27,568 bases of DNA from a virus: the IMG/VR virus record IMGVR_UViG_3300031521_000303, positions 1-27,568 of that record, one strand, 5' to 3'. Positions 19,781 to 26,807 of the stretch are shown here, one piece after another. A program made the position numbers and the translations under genes. The notes beneath the pieces were generated by a model. That model saw only the letters and a program-made list of their open reading frames with translations, had not been told where the DNA came from and did not search any database. Numbering within the stretch: the stretch's first letter is position 1; every line of letters starts with the position of its first letter.

Positions 19781-19790
19781 CTAAGTAGCT

Positions 19791-19813
19791 TTTAAGTTAA
19801 TATGGTGTATAAT
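19791..19813 (+). promoter_or_regulatory. rightward early-type promoter, copy 1
   Basis: TTTAAGTTAA (19791-19800) and TATAAT (19808-19813). The 31 nt around it are almost identical to those at 20504-20526. The -35 box resembles the C. jejuni box TTTAAGTnTT. Confidence 0.8.
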
Positions 19814-20501: not shown

Positions 20502-20503
20502 CT

Positions 20504-20526
20504 TTTAAGTTAATATGGTGTATAAT
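20504..20526 (+). promoter_or_regulatory. rightward early-type promoter, copy 2
   Basis: TTTAAGTTAA (20504-20513) and TATAAT (20521-20526), same spacing and nearly the same flanks as the promoter at 19791. The -35 box begins directly after the GNAT-like gene's stop codon, 3 nt away. Confidence 0.8.
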
Positions 20527-20558: not shown

Positions 20559-20837
20559 ATGAAAAAGATTTTAATTTCATTAGCTTTAATAGCAGGAATT
20601 TTATCTAATGCTTCTGCTATGGGAGATAGAGAAAGAAACGCTTTAGCAATTATTGGTGGGGTAGCAGTAGTTGGAGCCATTGTCAATGCTAATCAACCAA
20701 GATATGAAGAGAGATATGAATCATATCCTCCAAGATATGTAGAACCACAAAGAGAAGTTATTGTAGTTGATCGACCAGTAAGAGTTATAAGATATGAAGA
20801 GAGATATTCATATCCAAGTTACTATCGTTATAGATAA
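20559..20837 (+). CDS. small secreted or envelope protein with Gly-rich membrane segment and Arg/Tyr-rich tail
   Basis: Encodes 92 aa. Residues 1-20 form a classical signal peptide (KK, then I-L-I-S-L-A-L-I-A-G-I-L, then N-A-S-A), with likely cleavage after Ala20. The mature part begins MGDRERN and has a glycine-containing hydrophobic stretch (residues about 28-43, I-I-G-G-V-A-V-V-G-A-I). A tail very rich in Arg, Tyr, Glu and Pro follows, with repeated R-Y-E-E-R-Y and S-Y-P motifs. It is probably exported to the periplasm or outer membrane. Possible roles include superinfection exclusion or lysis timing, but no known family is evident. It resembles host small periplasmic proteins in style, so capture from a host is possible. 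Confidence 0.75.
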   Translation: MKKILISLALIAGILSNASAMGDRERNALAIIGGVAVVGAIVNANQPRYEERYESYPPRYVEPQREVIVVDRPVRVIRYEERYSYPSYYRYR

Positions 20838-20849
20838 CTTTAAATTTAT

Positions 20850-20871
20850 TTTAAGGTTATTATGTTATAAT
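20850..20871 (+). promoter_or_regulatory. promoter for the structured RNA / tRNA region
   Basis: TTTAAGGTTA (20850-20859) and TATAAT (20866-20871). It follows the secreted-protein gene and precedes 1.6 kb without a protein gene, so its product should be RNA. Confidence 0.7.
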
Positions 20872-20897
20872 TATATTGAACATGTTGATTGTTTGTC

Positions 20898-20922
20898 ACC
20901 TCCAAGAAATTATCTTGGAGGT
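20898..20922 (+). terminator. hairpin near the 5' end of the RNA region
   Basis: A perfect 10-bp stem, ACCTCCAAGA (20898-20907) with TCTTGGAGGT (20913-20922), around a 5-nt loop. It is followed by TCTTT, so it could act as a terminator or attenuator about 45 nt after the promoter. It may also be the first helix of the large RNA. Confidence 0.55.
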
Positions 20923-20996
20923 TCTTTAAAATACATATTTTAAGCTATCGGCCTAGCTTTTAAGTCTTAGGAAAGACATAATATGTATTTTAAAGA
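20923..20996 (+). ncRNA. three-way-junction RNA element
   Basis: A perfect 17-bp outer helix (20923-20939 with 20980-20996) encloses two hairpins. The first is AAGCTA/TAGCTT with a 6-nt loop (20942-20959), the second GTCTT/AAGAC with a 4-nt loop (20964-20977). The perfect long helix and neat inner hairpins are not expected by chance in plain intergenic DNA. It is placed directly after the 20898 hairpin and probably is the 5' domain of a longer structured transcript. Confidence 0.65.
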
Positions 20997-21553
20997 GCTT
21001 GAGGAGTAATTAACCTAAGGCTTAACCTATTTTTATAATAATGTGTATATTTGATGTGATGGCACTAAGAGAGGTTCAATTCCTCTTTGGATATCATCCA
21101 AGCAGGTTTGTCAAATTTGGGATCAAACTCCAAGTCAGATGATAATTATTGTATCAAAGCTCATAATAGATGTGCATAAAAATGAGATTGGTGAGAGTTA
21201 CTGAGTCATATGATGGTCCTGCGCTTAAGTGGGTAATTGTACAGTAACTGCTTTGAGTTTTCTAAGGAAGATTGAAAGCAGTTATAGCTGAAAAGCACCA
21301 CACGAGTTGGTGTCTAATCCCTTTGTTAAAAGACTGTATGTCAATGCTTAGGGTGAGTTGCGATCATAGGACTAACATGCTGGACTATGAAAATACACTA
21401 TTATAATTGCGGATATGGCATGTTCTTGAGCCAAAGAGAGAACAAAATACAATACTTTGATGGTATGTGATTCAGAACATTGGTATATAAGCCCAGAACG
21501 TCAACATCAAAGTTCTTTAAATTGGTAGCCCATATATGTAACTGGGCACTTAT

Positions 21554-21659
21554 ATGAGAGTGACGGAATTGGTAGACGTGTTCATAACTATAGAATAGGA
21601 CGCTATTTTATGTGTGTGATAAATTCTAGAATATTGTTGGTTCGAATCCAGCCTCTCAT
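21554..21659 (+). ncRNA. tRNA-Leu-like element, 106 nt, abnormal length
   Basis: A perfect 7-bp acceptor (ATGAGAG with CTCTCAT), a D-arm identical in style to tRNA-Leu (CGGAATTGGTAGACG) and a proper T-arm (GTTGG TTCGAAT CCAGC) are present. Between D-arm and T-arm there are about 60 nt. A short candidate anticodon stem (TGTTC/GAATA) gives a 9-nt loop, and TAGAATA occurs twice, 36 nt apart (21591 and 21627), as if an insertion lies there. There is no encoded CCA (TCA instead). It may be an interrupted tRNA, a tRNA with a giant variable arm, or a tRNA-mimic domain of the larger RNA. Confidence 0.55.
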
Positions 21660-21669
21660 ATCATTTTGT

Positions 21670-21746
21670 GGACCAGTAGCTCAGATGGTTAGAGCAAGCC
21701 GCTCATAACGGCTGGGTCGGGAGTTCGATTCTCTCCTGTTCCACCA
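21670..21746 (+). tRNA. tRNA with CAT anticodon (Met, or Ile if lysidine-modified)
   Basis: A full 77-nt cloverleaf with encoded CCA. Acceptor GGACCAG/CTGTTCC has one C-T mismatch; the D-stem is GCTC/GAGC, the anticodon stem AGCCG/CGGCT with loop CTCATAA, and the T-arm GGGAG TTCGATT CTCTC. The acceptor does not show the 1-72 mismatch of an initiator tRNA, so an elongator Met or an Ile(CAT) tRNA is likely. Confidence 0.95.
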
Positions 21747-21766
21747 GTTTTAAATTGTTATATAAT

Positions 21767-21842
21767 GGGGAATTAGCTCAGCTGGGAGAGCGCCTGCTTT
21801 GCACGCAGGAGGTCGTAAGTTCAATTCTTACATTCTCCACCA
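21767..21842 (+). tRNA. tRNA-Ala (TGC)
   Basis: A full 76-nt cloverleaf with encoded CCA. The acceptor is GGGGAAT/ATTCTCC, the D-stem GCTC/GAGC, the anticodon stem CCTGC/GCAGG with loop TTTGCAC, and the T-arm GTAAG TTCAATT CTTAC. It lies 20 nt after the CAT tRNA. Confidence 0.95.
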
Positions 21843-21884
21843 TTTTAGTATATTATAAGCAATAAGCTACTCTACTGTCACACA

Positions 21885-21971
21885 ATGAGAACGGGTAGAG
21901 ACTGGTTGGTGCCGTTGGGTAGCACATGAACCAGAGGTTGAAACTATATACAGTCTGTTGATGTTTCTCAT
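21885..21971 (+). ncRNA. compact multi-helix RNA element after tRNA-Ala
   Basis: ATGAGAA (21885-21891) pairs with TTCTCAT (21965-21971). Inside, CTGGTT (21902-21907) pairs with AACCAG (21929-21934) and encloses GTGC/GCAC around a 9-nt loop. AGACTG/CAGTCT is a competing inner helix, so the element might switch between two folds. No tRNA features were found. Confidence 0.45.
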
Positions 21972-22048
21972 AAGAGTACCTGATTGGACAATAAACACTA
22001 AAGATAATAATATCAATAGTCTGTAAACCCCAAAAGCTCTTTTTATAT

Positions 22049-22182
22049 GGATGACTGTGATTCCTTTAAGAACTTATAAGTTGTGATATCCAGCTTATAT
22101 GTTTTGGAAATTGTTTTTATAATAGATAGCTTGCAAGAAGATCTGTTATTAAGGAGTGGTTCAAATCCTCTCCCATCCTCCA
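22049..22182 (+). ncRNA. tRNA-like element, 134 nt, ending in CCA
   Basis: The 3' part is canonical in layout: T-arm AGTGG TTCAAAT CCTCT (one mismatch), 7-nt acceptor CCCATCC, a discriminator T and CCA. The 5' end GGATGAC pairs only at its first five bases. The 134-nt length and the lack of a normal D-loop mean it is no ordinary tRNA. It may carry an insertion or be a pseudo-tRNA. Confidence 0.4.
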
Positions 22183-22187
22183 TTTAT

Positions 22188-22262
22188 ATACACCAATGTT
22201 CCAAGGTGGCGAACGAGACCCAAATCTTGTTGTGCAAAGTTTGATTCTTTGGGTGTATGCCA
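22188..22262 (+). ncRNA. tRNA-like element, 75 nt, non-standard anticodon arm
   Basis: The acceptor ATACACC/GGTGTAT is perfect, followed by G and an encoded CCA. The D-arm is GTTC/GAAC with a GG-containing loop and the T-arm CAAAG TTTGATT CTTTG. The central arm does not give a 7-nt loop with U33: the best helix is CGAGA/TCTTG with the 6-nt loop CCCAAA. An automatic finder may call it a tRNA or pseudo-tRNA; I cannot assign an anticodon. Confidence 0.5.
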
Positions 22263-22271
22263 TTTTTATAT

Positions 22272-22485
22272 GGGACGAGATATTACGTTAAGTGATAGAA
22301 ATATCATACAATATGTCAGTTAGCTAGATGTTGCATAATCTATCTAACCTCTATTGGTAGTAAGTTGAATTTGATTTATCATTATTGAAGTTTAGCAAAA
22401 TGCAATACTTGCTTTAATATGTATGATGAGTTATTGTGATTCTTTAGTAGATATCCTTCTGGTTCAAGTCCAGTTGTTCCCACCC
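22272..22485 (+). ncRNA. tRNA-like element with a very long interior (about 214 nt)
   Basis: GGGACGA at 22272 can pair with TTGTTCCC at 22474-22481 (one bulge), just after a T-arm-like hairpin CTGG TTCAAGT CCAG. The interior holds hairpins at 22282-22308 (GATATT/AATATC) and 22319-22348 (11-bp arms, 8-nt loop). It ends ACCC rather than NCCA. This is compatible with an interrupted tRNA or a domain of the large RNA. Confidence 0.35.
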
Positions 22486-22492
22486 TTATTTT

Positions 22493-22516
22493 ATCAAAAC
22501 AAAGGAGAAGACAATG
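22493..22516 (+). repeat. repeated 5' leader cassette, copy 1
   Basis: ATCAAAACAAAGGAGAAGACA followed by the start codon region occurs identically before the genes at 22514 and 23224 (copy 2 at 23203-23226). A close variant (ATCAAAGATAGGAGAAGACA) precedes the gene at 22905. It contains the ribosome site and probably reflects duplication of a small-gene expression cassette. Confidence 0.7.
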
Positions 22517-22849
22517 TCACACTATATCATTCTAGCAGAAACACCTCAATATAATAAAGATTGTATATATACTGGTATGACATATGAACTATGGAGACAT
22601 ACTCATACAAAGTATGCTAATAATGAACCATATTTCTCAACTGATCTATCTCCATATAAAACAAAATATGGAATCTCTAAAGAAGATTTACCAAACCAAT
22701 TAAAAGATGCACAGCACTATCTTACTACAAGAAAAAGACAACCTGTAAGACAGTCAAGAGTGAGTAAGATATTTGTTCTAAAAGTAAACTCACCAAAGAT
22801 GTTCTATATTCTTAACCCAAAATATTCATCACCTCACCTTTATCTTTAA
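22514..22849 (+). CDS. hypothetical protein (111 aa)
   Basis: I do not recognise this protein. It is a soluble 111-residue product rich in Tyr and Lys. The start M-S-H-Y-I-I-L-A-E-T resembles a first beta strand, Y-T-G-M-T-Y-E-L-W-R-H-T-H lies near residue 19, and the C-terminus is V-N-S-P-K-M-F-Y-I-L-N-P. AAGGAG lies 8 nt before ATG. There is no close separate promoter, so it may be transcribed from the RNA region upstream. Confidence 0.75.
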   Translation: MSHYIILAETPQYNKDCIYTGMTYELWRHTHTKYANNEPYFSTDLSPYKTKYGISKEDLPNQLKDAQHYLTTRKRQPVRQSRVSKIFVLKVNSPKMFYILNPKYSSPHLYL

Positions 22850-23650: not shown

Positions 23651-25744
23651 ATGAAGTTAGCAATAGATGAATCTTTTCAAGCAAATGGATTAGGTGAAAC
23701 AAACCAGTTTCAAATGAAAGCTAGTGCAATGGCATTCAAAATTTTGTCAGATGGTTTATATAAAGACAAAATTGGAGCTATTGTAAGAGAGCTTGCTTGT
23801 AATGCATATGACTCTCATATTATGAGTGGAAATGCAGATACTCCTTTCACTATTCATTCACCAACATACTTAGATCAGACATTCAGAATCAGAGACTATG
23901 GAACAGGACTATCAGAGTCAGATACAATGACGATGTATTGTACTTACTTTGAATCAACAAAGACAATGACAAACTCTGCAATTGGTTGTTTTGGTCTTGG
24001 GTCAAAATCACCATTCTCATATACAAATAGCTTCACAGTCAATTCATATTTTGAAGGTGTAAAATATGAGTTCTGTGTCTTCCTTGATGCAAGTGGATTC
24101 CCTAATATTTCAAAGTTATCAGAAGAACCTTCAGAAGAACCATCTGGACTTGAAGTATGTATTTCTGTTGATAATAATGATAGACACAAGTTTGAGTCTG
24201 CTATCGAAACATACTGTAAAACCTTTGAGTTTATAGAATGTAATATTGATATTCCGAAACTTAATATTGTATATGAGGATAAAGAGAATTCATTATCTGT
24301 ATTTTATAAATACAATTATTCATATGGTAGCAGCAAGAGTTGTAATTTCTATGTAAAGCAAGGTCACATTATCTATCCTGTTAACTTTGAGTTGCTTAAT
24401 ATTAAACAAAAGGATGTAAAATTATTAACAGCATCAAGTAATTATTCATTTTTGCTTGATGTTCCAATAGGAACACTTGAAGTAACTCCATCGAGAGAAG
24501 AGCTTGGATACGATTCGAGAACTATTGAGAATTTAAGAACTAAGATTTTTGAAGCAAGAGATATTTATAATAAAAAACTTCAATCATATTTAGACGAGGT
24601 TATTGAAGAATATCCAGATGATATCTTTGCTTATACAAAAGCTTTTGTTATGAAGTTAACAGAATTAGATCCAACAGGCAATCTATATTTTGGAGATTTT
24701 GAGATCAATCATAATAATGAAGTAACCACTGTTTCTAAAATGACAGATTATCATTTGAATATTTCAAATATTAAGTTTTCATATGATGAAAAATTAAAGA
24801 GCAAATTTAGGAGAAGAGATTCGTTATCAATCATATGTAGTGATGATGATATATTTGTCTCTATTCCATATGGTGCTAGAATACCACAATCATCTGTTTC
24901 CGTATTCTTTAATGAGTCAGAAAACAGAAATAAACAGGTTAGATTTGTCAGTTACAAGATGCCATCTGCTCTTGAGAAATATGTCATTTCAGTAGATGTA
25001 TTCAAGGCTAAATATCCAGCACCAGCAAGACAAGCATATAGTAGAACCACAACTAAGTCTGGTATTTTATTATTGACTACAGTTTCTGGTTCTTTAAAAG
25101 TAAAAACACTATATAAGTCTTATTGTAATGAAACTATTGAGAAGCTAAAAGAATGTTACTATATAAATGTAAATGAAGTTGCAAAATCATATTTATATGA
25201 AATGAGCCTTGCTCTATCAGATATAAACGATTTGTTAAATACACAGCATAAAGTTTATATTCTTAATAAATCTCAAGTAAAAATTATGGAAGATAATGGA
25301 ATGAAACACTTTAAGGAACTATTGAACACAAATGTTAAAGCTATTATAACTGAAGCAAACTCTGCAATTTTTATTAATGATATTGGTAATAGGTGTGATA
25401 TGACTTTAATGGAATTAATTTCTAAATACCAACCAAAATATAAAAAGTTGACATACTCAACAGTATTTGCACATCTTAACTATTCTTATAAAGTAATACA
25501 TTTATTAAAGCTATTTAATATAAAACATTCTCTTGAAGGATGCTTTGAAAGATCAGCTAAAATGAAAGATTTATTTTTTGTATTACAAGAAGAAATGAAT
25601 ACGGATTTTGGAATGTTTAATCTATTAGAAGAATCATATTTCTCAAAAGAGAAGAAAGTGATATTAGAAGATTATATTAAGTTGGTTTTAAGTAAGAAAA
25701 CTATAAAATTAAGAAAAAGTATGGAGGTTAAAAATGTTGCCTAA
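23651..25744 (+). CDS. rIIA: rIIA lysis-inhibition/exclusion protein, GHKL ATPase fold
   Basis: Encodes 697 aa (T4 rIIA is 725 aa). A GHKL-type ATP site is clear: N-box I-V-R-E-L-A-C-N-A-Y-D-S-H (Glu47, Asn51, Asp54), G1 box I-R-D-Y-G-T-G-L-S (Asp82), and G2 box I-G-C-F-G-L-G-S-K-S-P-F-S-Y (111-124). The latter is nearly the same as in T4 rIIA (G-G-F-G-L-G-S-K-S-P-F-S-Y). In T4, rIIA and rIIB counter Rex exclusion by lambda lysogens and affect lysis; the biochemical role is not settled. The ATG has GGAG upstream. The stop overlaps the rIIB start by 11 nt, as expected for a coupled pair. Confidence 0.93.
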   Translation: MKLAIDESFQANGLGETNQFQMKASAMAFKILSDGLYKDKIGAIVRELACNAYDSHIMSGNADTPFTIHSPTYLDQTFRIRDYGTGLSESDTMTMYCTYFESTKTMTNSAIGCFGLGSKSPFSYTNSFTVNSYFEGVKYEFCVFLDASGFPNISKLSEEPSEEPSGLEVCISVDNNDRHKFESAIETYCKTFEFIECNIDIPKLNIVYEDKENSLSVFYKYNYSYGSSKSCNFYVKQGHIIYPVNFELLNIKQKDVKLLTASSNYSFLLDVPIGTLEVTPSREELGYDSRTIENLRTKIFEARDIYNKKLQSYLDEVIEEYPDDIFAYTKAFVMKLTELDPTGNLYFGDFEINHNNEVTTVSKMTDYHLNISNIKFSYDEKLKSKFRRRDSLSIICSDDDIFVSIPYGARIPQSSVSVFFNESENRNKQVRFVSYKMPSALEKYVISVDVFKAKYPAPARQAYSRTTTKSGILLLTTVSGSLKVKTLYKSYCNETIEKLKECYYINVNEVAKSYLYEMSLALSDINDLLNTQHKVYILNKSQVKIMEDNGMKHFKELLNTNVKAIITEANSAIFINDIGNRCDMTLMELISKYQPKYKKLTYSTVFAHLNYSYKVIHLLKLFNIKHSLEGCFERSAKMKDLFFVLQEEMNTDFGMFNLLEESYFSKEKKVILEDYIKLVLSKKTIKLRKSMEVKNVA

Positions 25745-26807
25745 ATTTAAGTTTTTGCAATCACTAAAAGAAGTTGTCTTGTTCATCAAAGGAAAGACAT
25801 TCAAAGTTGCTTCTGGCTCAGCAGAGTTTGAGGAAGTCAAAACAATTCTAAATACACCAAATGCAAATGAAGAGGATATGTTAAAAGTTGTTGATAACAC
25901 ATCTAAAGCTATTAAGGCTATGAGCTTTGATAAGAGATTCAAAATTGTTAATGGTGATGAAGTTTATTTTAAGGATGTTCAGATCCCTGTTGATTGTGCA
26001 GCACATGCTATTGAATTACATAAACAAGGTGTTCTTGATTCTACATTTGTTTCCTTTATTGAAAATCTTATGATGAATCCTAATAAGGAAGCTATCAAAG
26101 ATTTATATTCATTCATTCTAAAAGGTAAAATGCCTATCACAGAAGGTGGGTATTTTTGTGCTTATAGAGTATGTACAAATGATTTTAAAGATTGCCATAG
26201 TGGAACTTTTGATAATTCTATTGGTGCTACAGTAAAGATGGATAGATCAAAATGTGATTCAAACAGAAACCAAACATGTTCAACTGGTTTACACTTTTGT
26301 TCAGACTCGTATGTTTCTAGTTTTAGATCTGGTAACAATAGATTATTGATGGTAAAGATCAATCCAATGGATGTTGTAGCTATCCCAAATGATTATAATG
26401 ATGCCAAGGGCAGATGTTGTGAATTCTATGTCGTAAAAGAGATTGAACTTGGATCTATCACTGGTGTTGGTAAAATACAAACCACCAAAATTGTGAAAGA
26501 GAACAATACAACTAAAGATGGTGTAAAAACATGTTCAAAATGTAAGCAGACTAAAGTGTTGGACGATTTCTCTAAAGATAAATCAACCAAAGATGGATAT
26601 AGATGTCAATGTAAAGAGTGTTCAAAGAAAAAGTCAAAAGCTACAAAAGTTAAAACAGAAATTCAAGCAGAAGACCTGACTATTCATAAGACATGTACAG
26701 TTTGTAAAAAAGTTCTTTCCTTAGATTCATTCTCAAATGATAAATCAACCAAAGATGGAAAGAGATGTCAGTGTAAATCTTGTACATCAGAAAGAAGAAA
26801 GAAATGA
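25734..26807 (+). CDS. rIIB: rIIB protein with two C-terminal zinc-ribbon repeats
   Basis: Encodes 357 aa (T4 rIIB is 312 aa). Residues about 105-235 match T4 rIIB: F-I-E-N-L-M-M-N-P, L-P-I-T-E-G-like K-M-P-I-T-E-G-G-Y-F-C-A-Y, N-S-I-G, T-C-S-T-G-L-H-F-C-S and V-K-I-N-P-M-D-V-V-A-I-P-N-D-Y-N. Residues 265-357 are extra. Two copies of a Cys-rich motif of about 35 residues (C267/C270 with C291, C293, C296; C321/C324 with C345, C347, C350), each with D-x-F-S-x-D-K-S-T-K-D-G-x-R-C-Q-C-K, probably bind zinc. Such ribbons occur in many phage proteins that bind nucleic acid. The stop overlaps the next ATG as ATGA. Confidence 0.92.
   Translation: MLPKFKFLQSLKEVVLFIKGKTFKVASGSAEFEEVKTILNTPNANEEDMLKVVDNTSKAIKAMSFDKRFKIVNGDEVYFKDVQIPVDCAAHAIELHKQGVLDSTFVSFIENLMMNPNKEAIKDLYSFILKGKMPITEGGYFCAYRVCTNDFKDCHSGTFDNSIGATVKMDRSKCDSNRNQTCSTGLHFCSDSYVSSFRSGNNRLLMVKINPMDVVAIPNDYNDAKGRCCEFYVVKEIELGSITGVGKIQTTKIVKENNTTKDGVKTCSKCKQTKVLDDFSKDKSTKDGYRCQCKECSKKKSKATKVKTEIQAEDLTIHKTCTVCKKVLSLDSFSNDKSTKDGKRCQCKSCTSERRKK

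Follow-up and report, generated by a model that had tools for sequence, protein, structure and literature searches.

A tRNA island with further tRNA-like units and a folded leader in a fragment of a T4-like phage

A non-coding stretch of about 1.6 kb in a T4-like phage (positions 20876-22490) is best explained, at slightly better than even odds (about 55%), as a T4-type tRNA and small-RNA island, in which two decoding tRNAs stand beside processed tRNA-like units kept as non-decoding small RNAs. The stretch holds a promoter motif, two tRNAs, a large excess of T-arms, two extra units with both acceptor and T-arm, and locally folded segments, and it lacks a protein frame. The locus is real, non-coding and partly new in content, and a single giant ornate RNA is not supported. 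The supposed giant RNA is for the most part a tRNA island, which the usual tRNA finders recognise only partly.

A non-coding stretch with its own promoter

The window, i.e. the whole stretch of DNA analyzed, is an IMG/VR virus record of 27,568 bases and a fragment of a T4-like phage whose encoded proteins include a major capsid protein, a portal protein, and PhoH-like, rIIA and rIIB proteins. Its coding share is about 92% outside positions 20838-22513, which form a 1676-bp gap between genes. The longest stop-free run in the six frames of this gap is 70 codons, below the shuffle median of 79, which rules out protein coding of the stretch in any frame and bears out the preliminary description, made from the sequence alone, in its claim that about 1.6 kb carry no protein frame. 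The non-tRNA parts of the island have a GC content of 34.1%, compared with 24.4% for the rest of the contig's intergenic DNA and 31.0% for its genes. In this AT-rich genome, a GC content above that of other intergenic DNA suggests RNA genes or fairly recent tRNA ancestry and argues against long unconstrained drift.

The "strong promoter" placed before the stretch by the same description corresponds to a putative phage-type promoter [Table 1] whose motif is recurrent: the family TTTTAAG-N10-16-TATAAT has 5 copies on this strand against 0.12 expected. An identical 24-base promoter sequence, TTTTAAGTTAATATGGTGTATAAT, is found at 19790-19813 and 20503-20526, each copy ahead of one of two neighbouring genes.

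Table 1. Features of the island, in positions of the window, and tRNA-ended RNAs of other T4-like phages, in positions of their own records
Feature	Position	Strand	Evidence and remarks
Phage-type promoter TTTTAAGG-N-TATAAT	20849-20871	+	Motif; predicted island transcript start near 20880
10-bp hairpin ACCTCCAAGA-aatta-TCTTGGAGGT, leader start	20898-20922	+	Repeat scan; z -5.5 for 20876-21010
Three-way junction, 17-bp stem closing two hairpins	20923-20996	+	Repeats, folding; AAGCTA-TCGGCC-TAGCTT and GTCTT-AGGA-AAGAC
Orphan tRNA 3' half, T-arm AGAGG-TTCAATT-CCTCT then TTGGATA	21070-21093	+	T-arm scan; acceptor partner P 0.89
Structured segment, long imperfect hairpin 21245-21284	21191-21330	+	z -2.6, 3/200 shuffles; 160-nt window at 21201 z -4.0
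tRNA-Leu-like unit, 107 nt to discriminator plus TCA	21554-21663	+	Acceptor P 0.0065; z -2.2 for 21554-21660
tRNA, anticodon CAU (Met, or Ile if modified), CCA encoded	21670-21746	+	ARAGORN, Rfam
tRNA-Ala (UGC), CCA encoded	21767-21842	+	ARAGORN, Rfam
Possible orphan tRNA 5' half, D-arm GACTGGT TG GTGC-CGTTGGGTA-GCAC	21900-21925	+	Weak: 11.1 bits with model R1, D-arm scan
134-nt element ending CCCATCC-T-CCA	22049-22182	+	z -3.2, 0/200 shuffles as good; other strand z -1.0
tRNA-Trp-like unit	22188-22262	+	T-arm scan, folding; acceptor P 0.014
Orphan T-arm at 22458, TCTGG-TTCAAGT-CCAGT, TGTTCCC A	22272-22485	+	T-arm scan; z -1.9 for 22263-22490
T4 RNA C	L176:1409-1547	minus	tRNA-like T-arm and acceptor at end
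Oversize pseudo-tRNA family of KVP40-type and related T4-like phages (alignment A3), members	L183:10865-10986; L186:796-918; L186:1183-1308; L184:113-236		
Same family, further members	L185:144-259; L181:14706-14822; L189:795-910		
tRNA-ended RNA of about 240 nt, KVP40-type phages (alignment A5)	L183:9478-9718	minus	Also in L198, L199, L200, L201, L202, L203

tRNAs and tRNA-like units

The two normal tRNAs reported earlier, with anticodons CAU and UGC, were confirmed and are the only complete cloverleaves at gathering score; the CAU tRNA is possibly an Ile tRNA for AUA codons instead of Met. The scan for T-arms went further. Seven were found in 1.8 kb, where 0.075 were expected, and a single one in the other 25.8 kb of the same strand; two of the seven belong to the normal tRNAs, two to further acceptor-bearing units (21554 and 22188) and three to orphan 3' halves (21070, 22155 and 22458). 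Together with the candidate promoter, the absence of a frame and a non-tRNA GC content of 34% against 24% in intergenic DNA, these seven T-arms support the identification of the stretch as a phage tRNA island and a locus of non-coding RNA.

Only the acceptor partners of the units at 21554 and 22188 are beyond chance, so that a T-arm and acceptor close a body other than a normal tRNA at P 0.0065 and 0.014, respectively, whereas the closing stems at 22049 and 22272 give P 0.52 and 0.81. The partners of the three orphan T-arms are no better than chance, and the tRNA-like closings of 22049, 22272 and 21070 were accordingly dropped as significant (partner test P 0.5-0.9). Split or permuted tRNA halves were ruled out, since acceptor strands from different orphan halves show no pairing.

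The unit at 21554 has a perfect acceptor (ATGAGAG/CTCTCAT), a perfect T-arm and a D-arm of the Leu type, on which its reading as tRNA-Leu-like is based; its 5' half weakly matches phage tRNA-Leu (E 5). The place of a normal anticodon arm is taken by an oversize hairpin of 55 bases that folds as one long hairpin; the matching part of an ordinary tRNA-Leu has about 32 bases. The 9-bp repeat 21552/21653 listed in the preliminary description is the acceptor stem of this unit. With the tRNA-like model R1 it scores 29.8 bits, in the range of the island's two real tRNAs. Its reading by the intron mode of ARAGORN as a tRNA-Asn with a 17-base intron was set aside, there being no match to an Rfam intron family.

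The unit at 22188 combines a perfect 7-bp acceptor, a 5-bp T-stem and a GCCA end with a degenerate D-arm and an anticodon loop of six bases, CCCAAA, much like that of a tRNA-Trp from which U33 was deleted; the unit looks damaged rather than specialised. The 134-nt element before it has a free MFE structure composed of an acceptor-like stem, which closes it with 5 bp, a pair of hairpins and the T-arm at 22155. For both this element and the segment 21554-21660, folding beats that of shuffles, and does so on the plus strand alone. Further downstream, a pairing with GGGACGA would permit a 214-nt tRNA-like closing that starts at 22272.

tRNA-ended RNAs in other T4-like phages

Scanning other phage tRNA clusters for T-arms revealed tRNA-like units that ARAGORN does not report. 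Some of these are plain missed tRNAs or pieces of permuted tmRNAs. Three groups are not, and since all three covary, tRNA-ended RNAs other than tRNAs recur in the islands of T4-like phages.

The first of these is T4 RNA C (species 1 RNA, rnaC), a non-coding RNA of about 139 nt encoded beside tRNAs, whose role, like that of RNA D, is unknown (PMC3014915, PMC9697503). Its 3' end carries a perfect T-arm and, after that, an acceptor strand whose pairing partner is the 5' end of the same RNA. Across six phages both bases have changed in 18 pairs, those of the acceptor and T-stem included, where shuffles give 6.1 (none of 500 reached 18), and the covariation between acceptor and 5' end was found in Tevenvirinae. 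The window units share with it the tRNA-like ends and the island setting, and the 134-nt element is close to it in size. They differ in having no homology to it past the tRNA-like ends, and in being several where T4 has one. The best score in the window with the covariance model of T4 RNA C built on the six phages (R2) was 13.6 bits, contributed by acceptor and T-arm alone and below the 16-25 bits that ordinary tRNA genes attain.

The second group consists of pseudo-tRNAs of 113-126 nt in the tRNA clusters of KVP40-type, Aeromonas, Cronobacter and Citrobacter phages and of cyanophages, filed as pseudo or "other" tRNAs or left without annotation. Their alignment (A3, 18 sequences) shows acceptor, D-arm and T-arm retained and a covarying hairpin inserted in the anticodon arm, with the core AACGC-NNNN-CTGAYAAG-NNNN-TATTCNGCA. 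The unit at 21554 has the same outline, but this core is absent from the window, and its R1 score is that of ordinary tRNAs, compared with 68-119 bits for the members. The third group is an RNA of about 240 nt in KVP40-type phages (A5), in which a long body is closed by a covarying acceptor stem and T-arm and 28 pairs show compensatory changes in 7 sequences. It has no Rfam match and no RNA annotation, and is partly overlapped by small hypothetical ORFs that are probably spurious. Its outline, too, is shared by the window units; the covariance model detected no homology to it in the window.

None of the three covariance models placed the window units in the T4 RNA C, KVP40 pseudo-tRNA or KVP40 240-nt RNA families. 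Judged from sequence, then, the units have an outline in common with these groups (tRNA-like ends, an altered or missing anticodon arm, a position in an island) and sequences of their own.

A small-RNA island or a decayed tRNA cluster

According to the reading that we prefer, a single transcript would start from the promoter, run through the folded leader and hold the decoding CAU and Ala-UGC tRNAs, interspersed with the tRNA-like units 21554 and 22188, probably 22049, and perhaps 22272 and 21070, which have kept the T-arm and often an acceptor and CCA but lack an anticodon arm that could be used. The tRNA-like ends would be the points at which the host's tRNA-processing enzymes release every unit from the precursor. 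Translation would be the task of the two tRNAs; the tRNA-like units would last as small RNAs that do not decode, of the same kind as T4 RNA C, and might serve as stable regulators or as decoys that draw off host factors which bind tRNA. From the sequence features at hand, we infer the transcription, processing, stability and any function of these units. The reading draws on the excess of T-arms, the acceptor partners of 21554 and 22188, the R1 score of the former unit, the plus-strand-only folding of 22049-22182 and 21554-21660, the higher GC content of the non-tRNA parts, the putative promoter, and the like arrangement with covarying ends in T4 RNA C and in KVP40-type phages. Counted against it are the failure of our searches to find a relative with the region, the chance-level partners at 21070, 22155 and 22458, the damaged-looking Trp-like unit and the lack of homology, by covariance model, to the T4 RNA C and KVP40 units.

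Decay of tRNA genes is a serious rival, albeit one that we consider to fall well short of an even chance. The island would then be what is left of a once larger tRNA cluster, most of whose genes have decayed by insertions and deletions, leaving function to the two intact tRNAs alone or to these and the leader. The Trp-like unit, its anticodon loop one base short and its D-arm degenerate, is what such decay would leave, as are the three T-arms with no significant acceptor partner and the lone 5' half that may sit at 21900. Decay fits less well with the GC content of the non-tRNA parts, which exceeds that of genes as well as of other intergenic DNA, or with the 134-nt element, which folds far better than shuffles and on one strand only; 1.6 kb of useless DNA would, moreover, be unusual in a contig that is about 92% coding, and comparable tRNA-like units are conserved and covarying in T4 and KVP40-type phages.

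The small-RNA island reading invites a generalization, which we put forward tentatively, as a possibility that is not the favored one. tRNA-ended non-coding RNAs may be a general class in distant T4-like lineages, represented by T4 RNA C, the KVP40 pseudo-tRNAs and the 240-nt RNA, in which the decoding part has been swapped for other domains and the maturation handle kept; the present island would add three to five very divergent members, along with a structured leader RNA that is new. For decades no role has been assigned to two small RNAs of the T4 tRNA cluster. Recurrence of tRNA-ended RNAs with covarying ends in unrelated T4-like phages would mean that selection acts on them and that they are open to study in T4 and KVP40; they may then reveal how phages put tRNA processing to use in producing other stable RNAs, or how host defences that target tRNAs are handled. 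This wider pattern is of more interest than the window itself.

Folding and the case for one large RNA

GOLLD and ROOL are frequent near phage tRNA islands and their function is open (PMC12286853). The preliminary description had proposed that the stretch might be one large structured RNA, either a divergent member of these families or a new class. The setting is indeed similar, with two tRNAs in an island of a T4-like contig, but the window lacks a match to either covariance model: over 20800-22600 GOLLD gave none at gathering threshold or at E<=10, and the same was true of ROOL, a result that speaks against membership. No other Rfam family besides tRNA matched the stretch. A tmRNA was detected neither by ARAGORN nor at Rfam gathering score, the permuted tmRNA model reaching 18.3 bits where 47 are needed. 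Permuted tmRNA genes do occur upstream of rIIA in other T4-like contigs of IMG/VR (L018:3969-4371, L027:5329-5808 and L035:2904-3304).

Folding was compared with that of dinucleotide shuffles (200 for segment tests). Significant folding turned out to be local rather than global, and of the units lying between the structures two or more derive from tRNAs. Segments 20876-21010, 21191-21330, 21554-21660 and 22049-22182 beat their shuffles (z values in Table 1), and 21331-21550 folded no better than shuffles. The whole 1615 nt gave z -4.3, which dropped to a slight -2.0 when the leader was left out (21001-22490). The inverted repeats tell a similar story. Those listed earlier exist, among them 17 bp at 20923/20980, 10 bp at 20898/20913 and the 11/12 pair at 20960/21014, but their supposedly unusual density held only in part. 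There are 14 perfect repeats of at least 7 bp; shuffles have 9.0 (P 0.095), and windows of equal length from the same contig have 16.5 on average, so that the density at 7-8 bp is ordinary. Of repeats of at least 9 bp there are 4 where shuffles have 0.65, an excess that loses significance without the first 160 bp, in which the leader lies.

One large ornate RNA spanning the tRNAs, be it GOLLD-like, ROOL-like or of a new class, is therefore very improbable. The island setting, the z score of the whole stretch and the strongly structured leader agree with it, and 678 nt, a length that would suffice, lie between the promoter side and the first complete tRNA-like unit; against these stand the failed covariance searches, the slight fold that remains without the leader, the ordinary repeat density and the separate tRNA-derived units that make up part of the stretch. 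A new RNA class as such is conceivable.

The folded leader

The best candidate for a new structured element in the island is the leader, 20898-20996, whose three-way junction (about 20895-21000) is far outside chance and has no Rfam match. Positions 20960-20971 can alternatively pair with 21014-21025 (11 of 12 bases), which could let the leader alternate between two structures. As DNA the leader is an almost perfect palindrome, the minus strand of which folds as well as the plus strand or better. That the leader acts apart from the tRNA-like units, either at the DNA level (a cruciform or a palindrome bound by protein) or by regulating the transcript of which it is part, is the least probable of the explanations considered. 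In its favour are the minus-strand fold (z -8.1 vs -5.5), expected of a perfect palindrome, and the two states that the alternative pair would permit; against it are the two hairpins nested in the 17-bp arms, which make a neat RNA three-way junction, and the position just downstream of the promoter.

Relatives, host and neighbouring genes

Relatives were sought in IMG/VR with the rIIA, 218-aa, 492-aa, major capsid and portal proteins, with rIIA and capsid profiles and with a DNA pattern of the tRNA pair, and in genome contigs with capsid and rIIA. No relative carrying the 1.6-kb stretch was found in IMG/VR, the genome contigs or the phage records searched, and a nucleotide search of the region against phage records matched tRNAs only. 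The only contigs of the same clade found in IMG/VR were L003 (100% by capsid protein, 6.9 kb) and L004 (78%); the region was seen in neither, rIIA being absent from both records and a tRNA from both loci. By major capsid protein, the nearest cultured phages include the Eucampyvirinae of Campylobacter, which points weakly to the Campylobacterota host guessed earlier, yet their identity is only 34-37% and they are mixed with phages of other hosts.

Elsewhere in the window, positions 25734-26807 encode the rIIB-like protein, in the C-terminal part of which a Cys-rich motif with matches to endonuclease VII/HNH families, CSKCKQTKVLDDFSKDKSTKDGYRCQCKEC, occurs twice.
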